In this document: positions 602 to 8,983 of the stretch, in pieces
Position numbering within the stretch: position 1 is the stretch's first letter
Layout of the letters: every line of letters starts with the position of its first letter
Origin: a virus
Direction: 5' to 3' (one strand)
IMG/VR virus record: IMGVR_UViG_3300039249_000046
Location: 1-25,879 of that record
DNA: 25,879 nt
Made by a program: the position numbers and the translations under genes
Notes under the pieces: generated by a model
The model's database searches: none
What the model was told of the DNA's origin: nothing
Seen by the model: only the letters and a program-made list of their open reading frames with translations

Positions 602-1249
602 ATGGTCTCGCGGGCGCTCGGCTTCTCCCTGGGGATCACGACCGTCCTTTTTGCGGGAGGGGCGGCGGCGGGGTTGGCCCCGCTGTCATGGTCGTGGCGG
701 GCGCTCGCCATCGCGCTCGCCGTGGCGGGCGCGGTGCTGGGCATCGTCTGCTGGTGCTCGGAGTTCGGCTGGCCGCACCGCCGCCGCCGGGCCGAGGAGC
801 CCACCTATGAACCCTGCGGCTGCGCCGAGTGCCGACCTCCTGCCGGCACGCTCCAGGACGGCCTCCCGGAGTTGCTGCGCGGCCACCTCGATCGCGGCTA
901 CGGCCACGAGGGTCCGGTGACGGAGGAGGCGGAGCGGGTGGCCCGCGCCCTCCTCATCCGCCACTTGAGCGATGAGCAACGGAGGAGTTTTGGAAACCAC
1001 GGCTACTTCACGGTGACCCTGCCCGAGGCCTGGCGGCCCGACTTCTGGTACCGGCGCTGGCGGGTGCCCGGCCTGTACGGGCTGGCCGCGAGCCCGCTGG
1101 GCGAGGACGGCACGGCGCTGCCGTTCGCGCTCTGCGTGGTGCCCCGGGTGATCCAGCCGGAGAGTGACACCCTGCTCAGCACCAAACTGATGCTGGAGCA
1201 CGATCCCGGCAGGTTCCTGCGCGTCGGCCTCGTCCATGCCCGGCGCTGA
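602..1249 (+). CDS. Membrane protein with two N-terminal TM segments and a cytoplasmic-type domain
   Basis: 215 residues. Two hydrophobic segments (about residues 8-29 and 33-52) are followed by a basic stretch (HRRRRR), a small Cys cluster (C-G-C-A-E-C around 72-77) and a soluble domain from about residue 95. That domain has the order: helix with R-A-L-L-I-R-H-L-S-D-E-Q, aromatic beta region with Y-F-T-V and W-Y-R-R-W-R-V, then C-V-V-P...D-T-L-L-S-T-K-L-M-L-E-H-D. This last pattern resembles a small domain I have seen in phage and actinobacterial hypothetical proteins, in which a P-x-x-D-x-L-L/A-x-K-L-x-L-E box is conserved; the role is unknown. No good Shine-Dalgarno is visible. The stop overlaps the next start by one base (TGATG). 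Confidence 0.75.
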   Translation: MVSRALGFSLGITTVLFAGGAAAGLAPLSWSWRALAIALAVAGAVLGIVCWCSEFGWPHRRRRAEEPTYEPCGCAECRPPAGTLQDGLPELLRGHLDRGYGHEGPVTEEAERVARALLIRHLSDEQRRSFGNHGYFTVTLPEAWRPDFWYRRWRVPGLYGLAASPLGEDGTALPFALCVVPRVIQPESDTLLSTKLMLEHDPGRFLRVGLVHARR

Positions 1250-1971
1250 TGGCCGCCATCATCGTCGTGCCCCGGGCCGAGGTGACCCCGCAGCAGGTGT
1301 ACCAACTCCGCAACACGGCGCAGCAGCTAGCCCAGCAACTCGCCCACGCAGCGAACGGGGGCGGGGATCTTGTGTCGCGGGCGGTGAGCCCGGCGGATCT
1401 GTTCTCCGGTGGGGGGATCGGAGGTGCGCGGGCGGTGGCGCGGCTCCGCAACCCGGTGGCGCTGCGGGCCGACACCTGGGCGCACGATGTGTACCGGGGG
1501 ACCGAGGCCCAGCCTCGGGCGGCCATCGCCCTGTACGGCTATGAGGCGCTCAGCCGCTGGCCCCGGATCGACGCCATGCGTCTCGGCACCGCTGCCGTGA
1601 CCTTCGCTGAGCTCCAGCTGGCCCCCCTCTACGCCTACCCCCCCGACGAGCGCGACGAGAACGGCGTGCTCCGCTACCCGTCGCAGCGGGTCGGGTACTT
1701 CAACCCCGTCTACATCGCCCCCACCCAGCGGTTGGTCCTGTCGATGCTGGCCAGCCGGGACCTCCGCGCTGGCCGCGAGGAGTTCTGCTTCCTGGGGGTG
1801 ATCTCGGAGCCGCCGATGATGGTCGCCCAGCAGCAGCCGGTGATGCCATTCGGGGCGCCGGGGTACCAGGAGGTCGCGGCCCAGCCCCGGAATCAGGGCG
1901 ACCCCGACCGCCCCGGCGATGAGGCGCACTTCCGCCGCCAGCTCCGCGAGTTGGGCGGCGCGGCGGACTGA
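1249..1971 (+). CDS. Beta-rich protein, candidate virion structural protein
   Basis: 240 residues, soluble, no signal or TM segment. A Gln/Ala-rich N-terminal helix (about 14-36) precedes a central part (85-190) of alternating hydrophobic beta strands with turns rich in Pro, Asn and Gly, including G-Y-F-N-P-V-Y-I-A-P-T-Q-R-L-V-L and F-C-F-L-G-V-I-S-E-P. The tail is Pro/Gln-rich and ends in a charged helix. The strand pattern would suit a jelly-roll capsid subunit, and the gene sits among membrane proteins as in tailless membrane-containing phages, but this is inference from pattern and context only. The start shares one base with the upstream stop; a 6-bp inverted repeat lies at its end (1970-1986). 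Confidence 0.7.
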   Translation: MAAIIVVPRAEVTPQQVYQLRNTAQQLAQQLAHAANGGGDLVSRAVSPADLFSGGGIGGARAVARLRNPVALRADTWAHDVYRGTEAQPRAAIALYGYEALSRWPRIDAMRLGTAAVTFAELQLAPLYAYPPDERDENGVLRYPSQRVGYFNPVYIAPTQRLVLSMLASRDLRAGREEFCFLGVISEPPMMVAQQQPVMPFGAPGYQEVAAQPRNQGDPDRPGDEAHFRRQLRELGGAAD

Positions 1972-2011: not shown

Positions 2012-3256
2012 ATGCCCGAGTCGGCCGTCGCCCTCGCTCCGCCGCCGCCGCTTACCCCCTCCCGGGGCCGCAAGCCGGTCAACCGGCCGAGCTCCCACAC
2101 GGGCGAGGAGGTGGCCTTCGGCGTGGGCGCGGGGGGCCTCGCCGCCCTGCTCGCCTGGCTGCTCTGGCCGAGGTCGCCGACCTCCCCCTCATCGTGCCCC
2201 CCGGGGCAGTACCTCCCGACGGGGGCCTCGGGGTGCGTTCAGTGCCCGTCGGGCACGGTGCGCTCCTCTGGGATGCCGATCTCGCAGTGCGTCTCCTGTC
2301 CCTCGGGCCAGCAGCCGCTCGGTGACCAGTCTGGCTGCGCGCCCATCCCGGTGCTCACGCCGATCTGCCCGCCCGCCGGGAGCATCATCGAGGACGCCTC
2401 AAGCGGCGCGCAGTACGCCGTCGACCAGGGCGGGGTGATGCACTACATCACCTCCCCCGCCGCGCTCGCCGCCTGCGGGTACTGTGATGATCCCTCGCAC
2501 GTCACCCAGGTGTCGGACGCGACCATGCAGCAGCTCCTGGCCAGTTGCGCCCAGGGCACCGACATCGACGGCCAGAGCACCTGCGTGCTGGGGCCGGCGC
2601 TCTGCCCGGTGACCCCGCAGCCGCCAGCGACCCCGGTGGGCGCCTGCGGGACAGATCCTGACAACGACCTCTCGGTGACCCCGTACTGGTGGTCGCAGGC
2701 CTCCCAGGCAACCCAGATCGCCTCCACGGTGGTCGCCATGCTGCTCGGCCGCTGGGACTGCACCGAGCCGACCGACCAGCACTGGACCAGCATCTACAAT
2801 GCCCCCTGCTGCGGCTACACGCCGCTCCAGATGGTCGCCTTCCGCATCGTCAGCGACAGCGGCCAGGAGCTGGTCAGCGACGTCCAGCACCTCGCCGACC
2901 AGTACCAGGCGGGTGGCGCCTTTGCGGGCAGCCCCAACCCAGCAGAGGATTGCTTCATCGCCGCCGCCTTCAACATCGTCTTCAACCGCAACTGGACGGG
3001 CGCGCCAGCCTCCCTGCTGGACACCTGGCGCTCTTTCTATGAGACGCCCTGGACTGAGCCGAGCGGCGAGACCCTGTCCGGTCCCGAGCGCCTGGTGTGG
3101 CAGTTCTGCATGCAGCCCGAGTTCAGCGACCGGGTGACCTTCAATGTCGGCAACCCGATCTCCTGCTCTCCGGGGGTCAGCGGCTGCGCGGACTATGAGC
3201 CGGCCGGGATGGTGGCCTCGGCGGCGCTGGCGGTGTCGGCGCCCGGTATCCTCTGA
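2012..3256 (+). CDS. Single-pass membrane protein with Cys-rich ectodomain
   Basis: 414 residues. A Pro/Arg-rich N-terminus (1-33) leads into one TM segment (about 34-52), then a long probably external part. Residues 62-119 hold a Cys-rich array (C62, C75, C78, C93, C96, C109, C119) with C-P-x-G-x and C-x-x-C-P-S-G units, like small disulphide modules of the EGF/TNFR type. More Cys pairs follow to about 215. A larger domain (about 214-400) is rich in Trp, Tyr and helices. The last residues, V-A-S-A-A-L-A-V-S-A-P-G-I-L, match the end of the next protein. A surface spike or receptor-binding role is possible; no family is recognised. ATG 2012 is chosen over upstream in-frame starts because of the -10 box 7 nt before it. 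Confidence 0.75.
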   Translation: MPESAVALAPPPPLTPSRGRKPVNRPSSHTGEEVAFGVGAGGLAALLAWLLWPRSPTSPSSCPPGQYLPTGASGCVQCPSGTVRSSGMPISQCVSCPSGQQPLGDQSGCAPIPVLTPICPPAGSIIEDASSGAQYAVDQGGVMHYITSPAALAACGYCDDPSHVTQVSDATMQQLLASCAQGTDIDGQSTCVLGPALCPVTPQPPATPVGACGTDPDNDLSVTPYWWSQASQATQIASTVVAMLLGRWDCTEPTDQHWTSIYNAPCCGYTPLQMVAFRIVSDSGQELVSDVQHLADQYQAGGAFAGSPNPAEDCFIAAAFNIVFNRNWTGAPASLLDTWRSFYETPWTEPSGETLSGPERLVWQFCMQPEFSDRVTFNVGNPISCSPGVSGCADYEPAGMVASAALAVSAPGIL

Positions 3257-3259
3257 GCC

Positions 3260-3661
3260 ATGGCCCATCACGCCATCGGGGCGGCGCTGCTCGGGGCGGG
3301 CGCGGGTGGGGCCGCCGACGATGTGATCCACATCCTGCCGCCCCGGAACGCGACCAACCCATCCGCCAACCTCAACCCCATGACGGTCGGTATTGCGGTC
3401 GGCTCGCTGGCGGCGGCCGGTCTGGGGATCGCGCTCCTGCTCCAGTCGGAGCCGCCGGGACACGGCCTGAGCGCGTGGAACTGGGTGGGGGTGGGGGCGG
3501 CCACCCTGAGCGGGGCCGCGCTCGCTGAGGGGCTGAACTTCGGATACGCCTGGTCCCACGTCGTGTGGAATCTCCCCGACATCGCAGCGGGCGCAATGAC
3601 CCCCTCGCACCGGGCGGTGGCCAGCCCAGCCCTCGCCGTCTCCGCACCGGGCATCCTCTGA
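3260..3661 (+). CDS. Small membrane protein sharing the C-terminal tail of its upstream neighbour
   Basis: 133 residues. A Gly/Ala-rich N-terminus is followed by TM segments at about 43-61 and 75-92; the first ~20 residues are also moderately hydrophobic. The C-terminus V-A-S-P-A-L-A-V-S-A-P-G-I-L matches the preceding protein at 13 of 14 positions, although the rest of the two proteins is unrelated. The gene begins 3 nt after the upstream stop, so translation is probably coupled. Function unknown; a membrane-embedded partner of the 2012 product is a reasonable guess. Confidence 0.7.
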   Translation: MAHHAIGAALLGAGAGGAADDVIHILPPRNATNPSANLNPMTVGIAVGSLAAAGLGIALLLQSEPPGHGLSAWNWVGVGAATLSGAALAEGLNFGYAWSHVVWNLPDIAAGAMTPSHRAVASPALAVSAPGIL

Positions 3662-3669
3662 GGCCGGTC

Positions 3670-3885
3670 ATGGCGGCGACGCGGCTCCAGGTGGCGGGCG
3701 ACGGGCTGATGATGGTGGGGCTCCTCTTCATCGCCCTCGAGGCGGCCCGGGTGTTCACCCGCCGCCCCCCGGAGACAGAGGCCCAGGCGGTGGAGCAGGC
3801 GATCCCGATCGGGACGGTGGCGGCGCTGCTGATCGCCTCCGGGGGGATCATCCGGGGCCGGGGAGCGCCCCCCGCGCGGGGCTGA
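3670..3885 (+). CDS. Small membrane protein, two TM segments
   Basis: 71 residues from the ATG at 3670, 8 nt after the upstream stop. Two hydrophobic stretches (about 8-26 and 46-62) are separated by an acidic Glu/Gln-rich loop, and the end is basic and Pro-rich (R-G-R-G-A-P-P-A-R-G). This looks like a hairpin membrane protein. There is no strong Shine-Dalgarno, so the start could also be the GTG just upstream. Function unknown. Confidence 0.6.
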   Translation: MAATRLQVAGDGLMMVGLLFIALEAARVFTRRPPETEAQAVEQAIPIGTVAALLIASGGIIRGRGAPPARG

Positions 3886-4022: not shown

Positions 4023-4528
4023 GGGTGGTGGGCTTCCGCGCCTTCGAGGCGGCAGATGTGCACGGCGGCGAGCTCCGCTCCTGGGCGTTCTTTCGGGTGT
4101 GGCAGATCGGTGTCAACGCCGCCTCCTGCGACCACCCCGGTTGCTCGGGCCCGCCCGCCCTGCACCCCGTCGCCACCGCCCTTGCCGGCGGGCGGCCGCA
4201 GCGGCTCGGCTGCGGCTTCCACGCCTTCGCCCACCTCGTGGCGCTCGAGCACTACCTGGACGCCCAGCGCCAGCGCCCGCCGCTGCTGCGCCCACCCATG
4301 TGCGCGGTGGTGGGGGGCCTCGGGACGGTGCAACTCTGCGGCCATGGGTGGCGGGCGCGGCGGGCCGAGATCCTCGCCCTCTTCGGCGACAGCCCCCTGG
4401 AGCACCGCCTGGCGGAGCGGTACGGGGTGATGCTGCTGCCCGTCCCCGCCACCGCCGACCTGGGCCGGGTGGAGCGGTTCGCTGGCGAGTGGGGGCTGAC
4501 CCACGGCGAGGCGCTCCGGCTGCCGTGA
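4019..4528 (+). CDS. Unknown soluble protein with His/Cys motifs, mobile-element type
   Basis: 169 residues, GTG start overlapping the previous stop (GTGA). Visible elements are V-G-F-R-A-F, then W-x-x-G-V-N-A-A-S-C-D-H-P-G-C (C37, H39, C42), a G-C-G-F-H-A-F segment (65-70) and C-A-V-V-G-G-L-G-T-V-Q-L-C-G-H-G-W-R-A-R-R-A-E-I (95-118), ending with L-A-E-R-Y-G-V. I recall short phage and actinobacterial proteins with the same order (Cys pair, G-C-G-x-H/Y-A, W/F-R-A-E), all without known function. The conserved Cys/His residues suggest metal binding. Confidence 0.65.
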   Translation: MRVVGFRAFEAADVHGGELRSWAFFRVWQIGVNAASCDHPGCSGPPALHPVATALAGGRPQRLGCGFHAFAHLVALEHYLDAQRQRPPLLRPPMCAVVGGLGTVQLCGHGWRARRAEILALFGDSPLEHRLAERYGVMLLPVPATADLGRVERFAGEWGLTHGEALRLP

Positions 4529-5052
4529 GCGTCACGCCGGGAGCCATCATCTTCGTCCGCAACGCGGGCATCGGGCCGGCGCTGATCCGGCTTGGCGAGA
4601 GTCGCCGGTACGGGCGGGGGCGGGGGCCAGGCGACCCCGCCTATTGGAACCACGTGGCCGTCTGCGTCGCCCCCGGCGAGGTGATCGAGGCGCGTCCCCA
4701 GGGGGTCGTGCCCTGGGCTCTGGATCGGGAGGGCGGTTGGGCGGCCTGGCAGGCATGGATGCCCCCGTACGGGCCTGCCGGCGCCGCCCCGTGCGTGGCC
4801 GCCATGCGCGAGCTGGCCGCCCACCGCGAGGGCTACGGCTGGGTGGGGATCCTGAGCGAGGTGCTGATGTTCCTGACCGGCTCCAAGCTCCGCCTCGGCC
4901 TCCAGGGGACCGACTTCTGCTCGGGCGCCGCCGCGTACGCGCTGACCCGCGCGGACATCGACATGGGCACCGACGAGGAGTGGGACGCCCCCGCCACGGT
5001 CTACGCGCTGGGGCCGAAGGCCGGCGGGTGGACGCTGCTCGAGCGCCGATGA
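4525..5052 (+). CDS. Permuted NlpC/P60 (papain-like, YiiX/YebB-type) hydrolase
   Basis: 175 residues, GTG start overlapping the upstream stop (GTGA). The layout matches circularly permuted papain-fold enzymes: a beta strand G-A-I-I-F-V-R, then W-N-H-V-A-V with H43, V-I-E-A with E55, and the Cys near the end in D-F-C-S-G-A-A-A-Y-A-L (C132). In the family the early His and late Cys form the active site and many members cut peptide or amide bonds in cell wall or act on lipids. Here it could be a virion-associated or lytic hydrolase. No signal peptide is visible. The substrate cannot be inferred. Confidence 0.65.
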   Translation: MSVTPGAIIFVRNAGIGPALIRLGESRRYGRGRGPGDPAYWNHVAVCVAPGEVIEARPQGVVPWALDREGGWAAWQAWMPPYGPAGAAPCVAAMRELAAHREGYGWVGILSEVLMFLTGSKLRLGLQGTDFCSGAAAYALTRADIDMGTDEEWDAPATVYALGPKAGGWTLLERR

Positions 5053-5442: not shown

Positions 5443-5517
5443 CTGGGCGTGGCGCAGCGGTAGCGCACGTGCCTCGGGCGCACGGGGTCGGAGGTTCGAG
5501 CCCTCCCGTCCAGACCA
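5443..5517 (+). tRNA. tRNA-Pro, anticodon CGG
   Basis: All four arms fold: acceptor CTGGGCG/CGTCCAG (one G-T pair), D-stem GCGC/GCGC, anticodon stem CGTGC/GCACG with loop CTCGGGC (anticodon CGG at 5475-5477), T-stem GGAGG/CCTCC with loop TTCGAGC. Position 73 is A and CCA is encoded (5515-5517). The C1-G72 first pair and G37 are usual for bacterial tRNA-Pro. It would read CCG, which is frequent in this GC-rich DNA, so it may support translation of the element's own genes. The mature gene is 5443-5514 plus CCA. Confidence 0.93.
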
Positions 5518-7775: not shown

Positions 7776-8171
7776 ATGCCGCTCCTCCGACCCGGGGTGG
7801 AGGTTGACAACCGCACCCGGTACCCCACCGCCGAGGTGCGGGCGATCATCCAGCGCTGCATGGTGGGGCGGCGGGCCAAGCCTCCCCGGGTGATCGTGCT
7901 CCCTCAGCGCAACCCGGCTGGCGACCTGGCCTTCACCCCGTTCGACAGCGCCCAGCCGATCCGGATCTGGCTGGACCCGCCCTCCCGCTACCCCCAGGTG
8001 GGGGCCAGGACCTGGAAGGAGCAGCTCGCCAAGAGCGCGGGCCACGAGGACTGGCACTTCCAGCACCCGACCGAGGAGTGCCGGGGCGGCAGCTGCGAGC
8101 GGCGGGCGGAGCGCCACGCCACCCGCCAGTACCGCCGGCGGGCCGGGCGGCTGCGGAGGCGGGCACCGTGA
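7776..8171 (+). CDS. Putative zinc metallopeptidase (HExxH), 131 aa
   Basis: GGAGGG a few bases upstream supports ATG 7776. Near the middle is H-E-D-W-H (90-94), an HExxH zinc motif in a helix, followed by H97 and, after a short Cys-containing loop, C-E-R-R-A-E-R-H-A-T (107-116) whose Glu could be the third ligand. This spacing is like compact gluzincins such as the ImmA/IrrE or SprT-like groups. The tail is very basic (R-R-R-A-G-R-L-R-R-R). It may process virion or regulatory proteins; no target is evident. Confidence is higher for the gene than for activity. Confidence 0.65.
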   Translation: MPLLRPGVEVDNRTRYPTAEVRAIIQRCMVGRRAKPPRVIVLPQRNPAGDLAFTPFDSAQPIRIWLDPPSRYPQVGARTWKEQLAKSAGHEDWHFQHPTEECRGGSCERRAERHATRQYRRRAGRLRRRAP

Positions 8172-8863: not shown

Positions 8864-8983
8864 GTGTACACCCACTCCCACCCCCATAAGCACATGGGCA
8901 AGAAGGGGCACAAGAGCCACAAGAAGGGCCGGAGCCGGGCGCGTCAGCCGCGCAACCGCCTCGGCCAGTTCAAGCGCAAGTAA
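8864..8983 (+). CDS. His/Lys-rich basic peptide, 39 aa
   Basis: GGAGG lies 7 nt before GTG 8864. The first 20 residues alternate His and Lys (H4, H6, H8, H10, H16, H19), and the rest is Arg/Lys-rich, ending R-L-G-Q-F-K-R-K. This basic G-x-F-K/R ending is common in small phage proteins. The peptide is likely to bind nucleic acid or metal. The stop codon forms part of the 8971-9004 hairpin. A convincing ribosome site and a promoter box upstream are the reasons to accept so short a gene. Confidence 0.6.
   Translation: MYTHSHPHKHMGKKGHKSHKKGRSRARQPRNRLGQFKRK

Follow-up and report, generated by a model that had tools for sequence, protein, structure and literature searches.

Why should two neighbouring membrane proteins of different architecture end in the same peptide? 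This question is raised by the window, the 25,879-nucleotide stretch of viral DNA analysed here, in which the products of two consecutive genes, A1 and A2, both terminate in ALAVSAPGIL:

2012..3256, + strand: protein A1, 414 aa (from the ORF, hydropathy and an alignment of relatives)
3212..3256, + strand: A1 tail, VASAALAVSAPGIL-stop
3260..3661, + strand: protein A2, 133 aa, a small membrane protein with predicted transmembrane (TM) character (from the ORF)
3617..3661, + strand: A2 tail, VASPALAVSAPGIL-stop

The tail in A1 and A2

A1 has a large ectodomain and an N-terminal TM helix. Its layout comprises a short basic N-terminus, the single helix (residues 34-52, by hydropathy), Cys-rich repeats, a variable C-terminal half and the tail, and its C-terminus reads MVASAALAVSAPGIL; that of the differently built A2 reads RAVASPALAVSAPGIL. 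Neither protein belongs to a known family in Pfam or PHROGs, A1 giving a weak, below cut-off Pfam match to Ephrin_rec_like. Searches of the tailed and neighbouring proteins against Pfam, PHROGs and the PDB returned nothing informative for the tailed ones.

Our recount of the last 14 residues agrees with the preliminary description of this DNA: 13 are common to both proteins, and nine of these 13 are specified by different codons. Over the last ten codons the residues are identical and 8 of 30 bases differ, with all eight differences at third positions, a placement expected by chance with a probability of 7.7e-6. These exclusively third-position changes bear out the earlier proposal that the tail is kept at the protein level, and that it is a shared tag of this kind is well supported. 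A recent duplication of the tail was also considered and was rejected on the grounds of the codon differences, the third-position changes and the divergence seen in relatives.

The tail codons could alternatively represent a translated DNA-level signal, such as a ribosome-binding site for the next gene, a terminator or a recombination site. The A2 start lies just three bases past the A1 stop, and a cassette junction in a relative (described below) falls at the tails, as would suit such a signal. However, third positions vary while the residues stay, the sequences downstream of the tails have little in common, and behind some of the other tailed genes no gene follows in close coupling. We consider this the least probable of the explanations discussed here.

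Further carriers, conservation and kinship

The window, an IMG/VR record, is 99.99% identical to part of IMGVR_UViG_3300040944_000171 (G001; 70,626 bases, 71% G+C). The ends of G001 share a 127-base repeat that the window spans, from which it follows that the genome is a circle of about 70.5 kb; its source is an uncharacterised circular soil virus of ~70 kb. Module A denotes the window genes and module B the 6.2-13.6 kb region of G001, on the opposite strand. A search for other proteins with the tail, as the preliminary description had proposed, revealed two more membrane proteins in module B of the same genome, B1 (ending FLQVSQPGLL) and B2 (GDMRSAPGLL); a six-frame scan of G001 identified exactly A1, A2, B1 and B2 as tailed ends.

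Extending the search to relatives, likewise proposed, added a third locus and an unrelated replacement gene. IMGVR_UViG_3300044823_000503 (G008), a more distant relative whose DNA is about 80% identical, encodes five tailed proteins: A1 (ALAVSSPGIL), A2 (AMQLSAAGIL, with the looser ending LSAAGIL), B1 (FLQVSQPGLL), B2 (GDMISQPGLL) and C (GMVVSAPGIL). The G008 C protein combines a TM helix, a Pro stalk, a Cys-rich region and the tail. In G001, G006 and G007 the C gene, at the same place, gives a shorter product without the tail, which is therefore dispensable there. In IMGVR_UViG_3300018024_000368 (L011), A2 is replaced by a 305-aa protein, A2' (L011:5649-6566), ending GMAVSAPGIL. A2' combines a TM helix with a Pro/Thr stalk and with regions rich in Cys and Trp, and is unlike A2 except at its C-terminal end. 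The flanks of the replacement are 96-99% identical; the similarity is lost at the A1 stop codon and picks up again within the codons of the tail. We read this swap as a clean cassette exchange of putative surface proteins, with its junctions at the tail codons.

Together these sequences define the consensus [LM]-x-[VLIR]-S-x-[PA]-G-[IL]-L, C-terminal and flush with the stop codon in all 11 sequences; this exact register points to a signal that includes the free carboxyl end. Ends matching S-x-[PA]-G-[IL]-L occur in four of the 110 called genes of the complete genome against 0.0013 expected from genome residue frequencies (P about 1e-13, for a motif defined after looking at the data, although the margin is wide). 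The motif does not occur internally in any of the 110 gene products, and none of 20,000 trials with shuffled C-terminal 15-mers yielded more than one match. When 2.9 million viral contigs were scanned with two degenerate patterns, the tail was matched only in this virus group; the second pattern left two positions free for any residue, but each held certain codons or residues constant, so that looser variants could escape.

The register with the stop codon also bears on the suggestion, made in the preliminary description, that the tail is a cleavage site for an element-encoded protease. The neighbourhood of the tailed genes includes two candidates for such an enzyme:

1249..1971, + strand: 240-aa protein, paralogue (36% identity) of a 197-aa protein of module B
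3670..3885, + strand: 71-aa protein with two predicted TM helices, the next gene of module A
4525..5052, + strand: 175-aa protein resembling permuted papain-like hydrolases, from a residue pattern recognised by eye (NHVAVCV ... FCSGAAAYAL)
5443-5517: tRNA-Pro (CGG), downstream of module A
7776..8171, + strand: 131-aa protein with an HEDWH (HExxH) motif, from the gene call and sequence

The papain-like and HExxH proteins do lie nearby, as had been described, but nothing was found that links either to the tail, and the papain-like candidate has no Pfam match. Moreover, the conserved residues stop at the stop codon in 11 of 11 cases, leaving none behind a putative cut. The cleavage option is consequently very improbable, and a docking peptide or assembly tag is the best that remains of the functions first suggested. 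Yet less probable is a C-terminal degron or tail-specific-protease signal controlling turnover. Nonpolar C-termini are known recognition signals, being bound by ClpXP and Tsp/Prc, but a strict S-x-P-G-[IL]-L with its Pro-Gly is not the known degron pattern, and a degron would be odd on proteins that are likely to lie at the surface.

Between G001 and G008, 9 of the last 10 residues of A1 are kept, whereas the preceding 50 residues are 30% identical; correspondingly, pN is 0.05 in the tail and 0.60 over the 50 codons before it. B1 shows no residue change in its tail between the two genomes, and the 50 residues ahead of that tail are 68% identical. For A2 and B2, conservation of the tail does not exceed that of its surroundings, or does so only slightly. 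The tail serine is encoded by TCN in module A and by AGC in B1, a two-base switch.

The carriers are not all independent of one another. With the tails removed, B1 and B2 show profile similarity (E 0.003) and are probable paralogues by sequence; A2 and B2 show a weak one (E 0.084), which would make A2 a possible distant paralogue of the tailed module B proteins. A1 and A2' of L011 have in common a Cys-containing stretch of roughly 50 residues (E 7e-5). The kinship of B1 with B2 and the domain common to A1 and A2' mean that there were fewer independent acquisitions than there are carriers, with perhaps two or three kinds of carrier rather than five or six independent ones. The tail might accordingly be inherited from a few ancestral genes or recombined C-terminal ends, reflecting descent or gene conversion more than shared function. 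Besides these kinships, 26 of 30 bases are identical between the A2' tail and the A1 tail of the window, the L011 replacement has its junction at the tails, and the last Leu codon is CTC in 11 of 11 tails against a CTC usage of 48% in the genome, a uniformity that hints at common descent of some tails. However, descent accounts for the origin of the tail and not for its persistence: the tail stays although the protein bodies are no longer recognisably alike and changes have occurred at synonymous sites. We therefore regard inheritance as an unlikely main explanation.

Genome setting and candidate partner proteins

G001 encodes a D5-type primase-helicase, DNA methyltransferases, glycosyltransferases and a MoxR-like ATPase (Pfam and PHROGs, in the genes scanned). 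The hallmark genes of Caudoviricetes were not found: no terminase, portal, HK97-type or other known coat protein was detected among the scanned G001 genes with PHROGs and Pfam, or among the best 25 families of the group scans. A strict Walker A pattern picked out only the D5 helicase and the MoxR-like AAA protein among the G001 gene calls, and thus no FtsK/HerA-type packaging ATPase, although divergent ATPases could escape this pattern. A tblastn search against phages and plasmids gave no credible match. A 617-aa protein (L021:14339-16192, minus strand) has intein-like (Hint/LAGLIDADG) segments in its middle, with matches under the Pfam cut-offs.

Small TM proteins are numerous in modules A and B, and the genome encodes an SCP2 sterol/lipid-transfer domain (E 3e-12, group scan), the matching protein probably being L021:6263-6598 (minus strand), judged by length and sequence. 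An SCP2 domain is unusual in a virus and is possibly linked to virion lipids. The small TM proteins of both modules and the SCP2 domain serve only as supporting context for the docking explanation given below.

The 240-aa protein upstream of A1 is possibly a coat protein, although it has no family or PDB match. A check for single-jelly-roll coat proteins produced beta-rich models of low confidence, for the 197-aa protein (mean pLDDT 42) and for a neighbouring 270-aa protein (mean pLDDT 36), with no fold or PDB match. A fold search with the 197-aa model returned nothing usable, sequence and PDB searches gave no match, and nor did genome contigs searched with the 197/240-aa and 179-aa proteins. 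On these models, a coat-protein role for the 197/240-aa family is a guess.

A second common tail occurs elsewhere in the genome. At 28.7-34.8 kb of G001 (L022:8670-14810, minus strand), about nine different small basic proteins stand in a row and have a common His-rich C-terminus, RR-x-AP-[ILV]-H-[TS]-H-[ATG]-H-G-G-R or close variants; the array is also present in G006, at 30.5-36.3 kb. One of these proteins was tested against the phage collection and had no match. The window itself encodes, at 8864-8983, a 39-aa His/Lys-rich peptide (VYTHSHPHKHMGKKGHKSHKKGRSR...) that resembles the His-rich tails but has the similarity at its N-terminus.

A proposed docking peptide and its parallels

It is an established principle that proteins without common origin can bear C-terminal sorting signals, and the carriers here are of the membrane or secreted type; the tail could therefore be a sorting or export signal, read by a secretion machine or peptidase of the host or the element and not by a structural partner. 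Known sorting tails consist of a hydrophobic helix and a basic end. In LPXTG and PEP-CTERM signals these follow the motif, whereas here the motif forms the last residues of the protein and has neither. In addition, the carriers already possess TM anchors, and no sortase, exosortase, rhombosortase or export gene was found among the scanned genes. In the viral collection no tail turned up beyond this virus group; a signal read by the host would be expected on host genes too, the scanned collection being viral. We find a sorting signal quite unlikely, less so than the protease-related readings but more so than simple inheritance.

A docking function for the tail is plausible, and we see about an even chance that it is a C-terminal docking peptide for one group-specific partner. 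The motif [LM]-x-[VL]-S-x-P-G-[IL]-L-COOH would be read, along with its free carboxyl end, by a single such partner. The carriers would be proteins of the virion or envelope, anchored in a membrane. A1, A2' of L011 and C of G008 would be the spike-like ones, in which an N-terminal TM helix is followed by a Pro- or Cys-rich ectodomain and the tail comes last; A2, B1 and B2 would be the small ones. The tag would plug differing, fast-changing surface proteins into one socket, so that the proteins could be swapped and the plug retained. This socket would most likely be provided by a coat or scaffold protein that assembles against the membrane, with docking probably taking place during virion or envelope assembly. 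Partner binding, the structural nature of the partner and the membrane-containing particle are all elements that we infer.

Several observations favour docking: survival of the tail through gene replacement in L011, the presence of four tailed proteins in one genome, constraint on the tail while the bodies of A1 and B1 diverge, the serine codon switch, confinement of the tail to this group in viral contigs, and the anatomy of the G008 C protein. Against it count the tailless C of G001, G006 and G007, the looser end of A2 in G008, the weak constraint on the A2 and B2 tails, the kinship among carriers, the low confidence of the models behind the coat-protein guess, and the fact that no partner emerged from the analysis.

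Two known systems work on a similar principle. While the capsid targeting sequence (CTS) of phage T4 is N-terminal, is removed by the phage protease and targets soluble proteins to the scaffold core, the tail described here is C-terminal, flush with the stop and carried by membrane-anchored proteins, in an element where no terminase, portal or HK97-type gene was found. The CTS, the sole conserved piece of diverse internal proteins, directs their entry into the particle (PMC3012670); the likeness lies in a short peptide common to varied, fast-changing proteins, whose virion role we infer here. Encapsulin targeting peptides are short, C-terminal and present on unrelated proteins, and dock cargo to a shell protein (PMC8346489). 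Here too, otherwise unrelated proteins carry a conserved short peptide at the C-terminus, but the encapsulin peptides differ in sequence, their cargo consists of enzymes and not membrane proteins, and their shell has the HK97 fold; no encapsulin or HK97-type family was matched among the scanned genes (best 25 families in the group scans). The tail thus belongs to neither class, alike as the principle is.

In the Sphaerolipoviridae (SH1, HCIV-1, HHIV-2), single-beta-barrel coat proteins of 185 and 232 aa are touched and held in position by small membrane proteins, and the passages describing this mention no shared C-terminal tag (PMC6414509, PMC6441041). The element resembles this arrangement in having two related proteins, of 197 and 240 aa, in the company of many small TM proteins. 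In contrast, no sequence match was found, and the element has a genome of about 70 kb and a D5-type primase-helicase. By analogy, the sphaerolipovirus architecture is a plausible parallel to this element, and is not put forward as homology. In the literature searched on tailless membrane-containing phages we found no described tag of this kind.

More tentatively, there may be an unrecognised group of circular dsDNA viruses, membrane-containing and without a terminase, that assembles by two peptide-plug codes, with the proteins exchanged as cassettes; we think this possible but rather doubtful. One code, S-x-P-G-[IL]-L, would dock interchangeable surface proteins, and the other, the His-rich RR-x-AP-[ILV]-H-[TS]-H-x-H-G-G-R, would do likewise for the small basic proteins. 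If the docking explanation is true, the tail would amount to a modular code for attachment that occurs in nature, its nine C-terminal residues forming a plug whose partner should be a coat or scaffold protein. The tag would then mark likely structural proteins that homology searches have missed in an uncharacterised virus group, and the virus could exchange its surface proteins without redesigning the particle.
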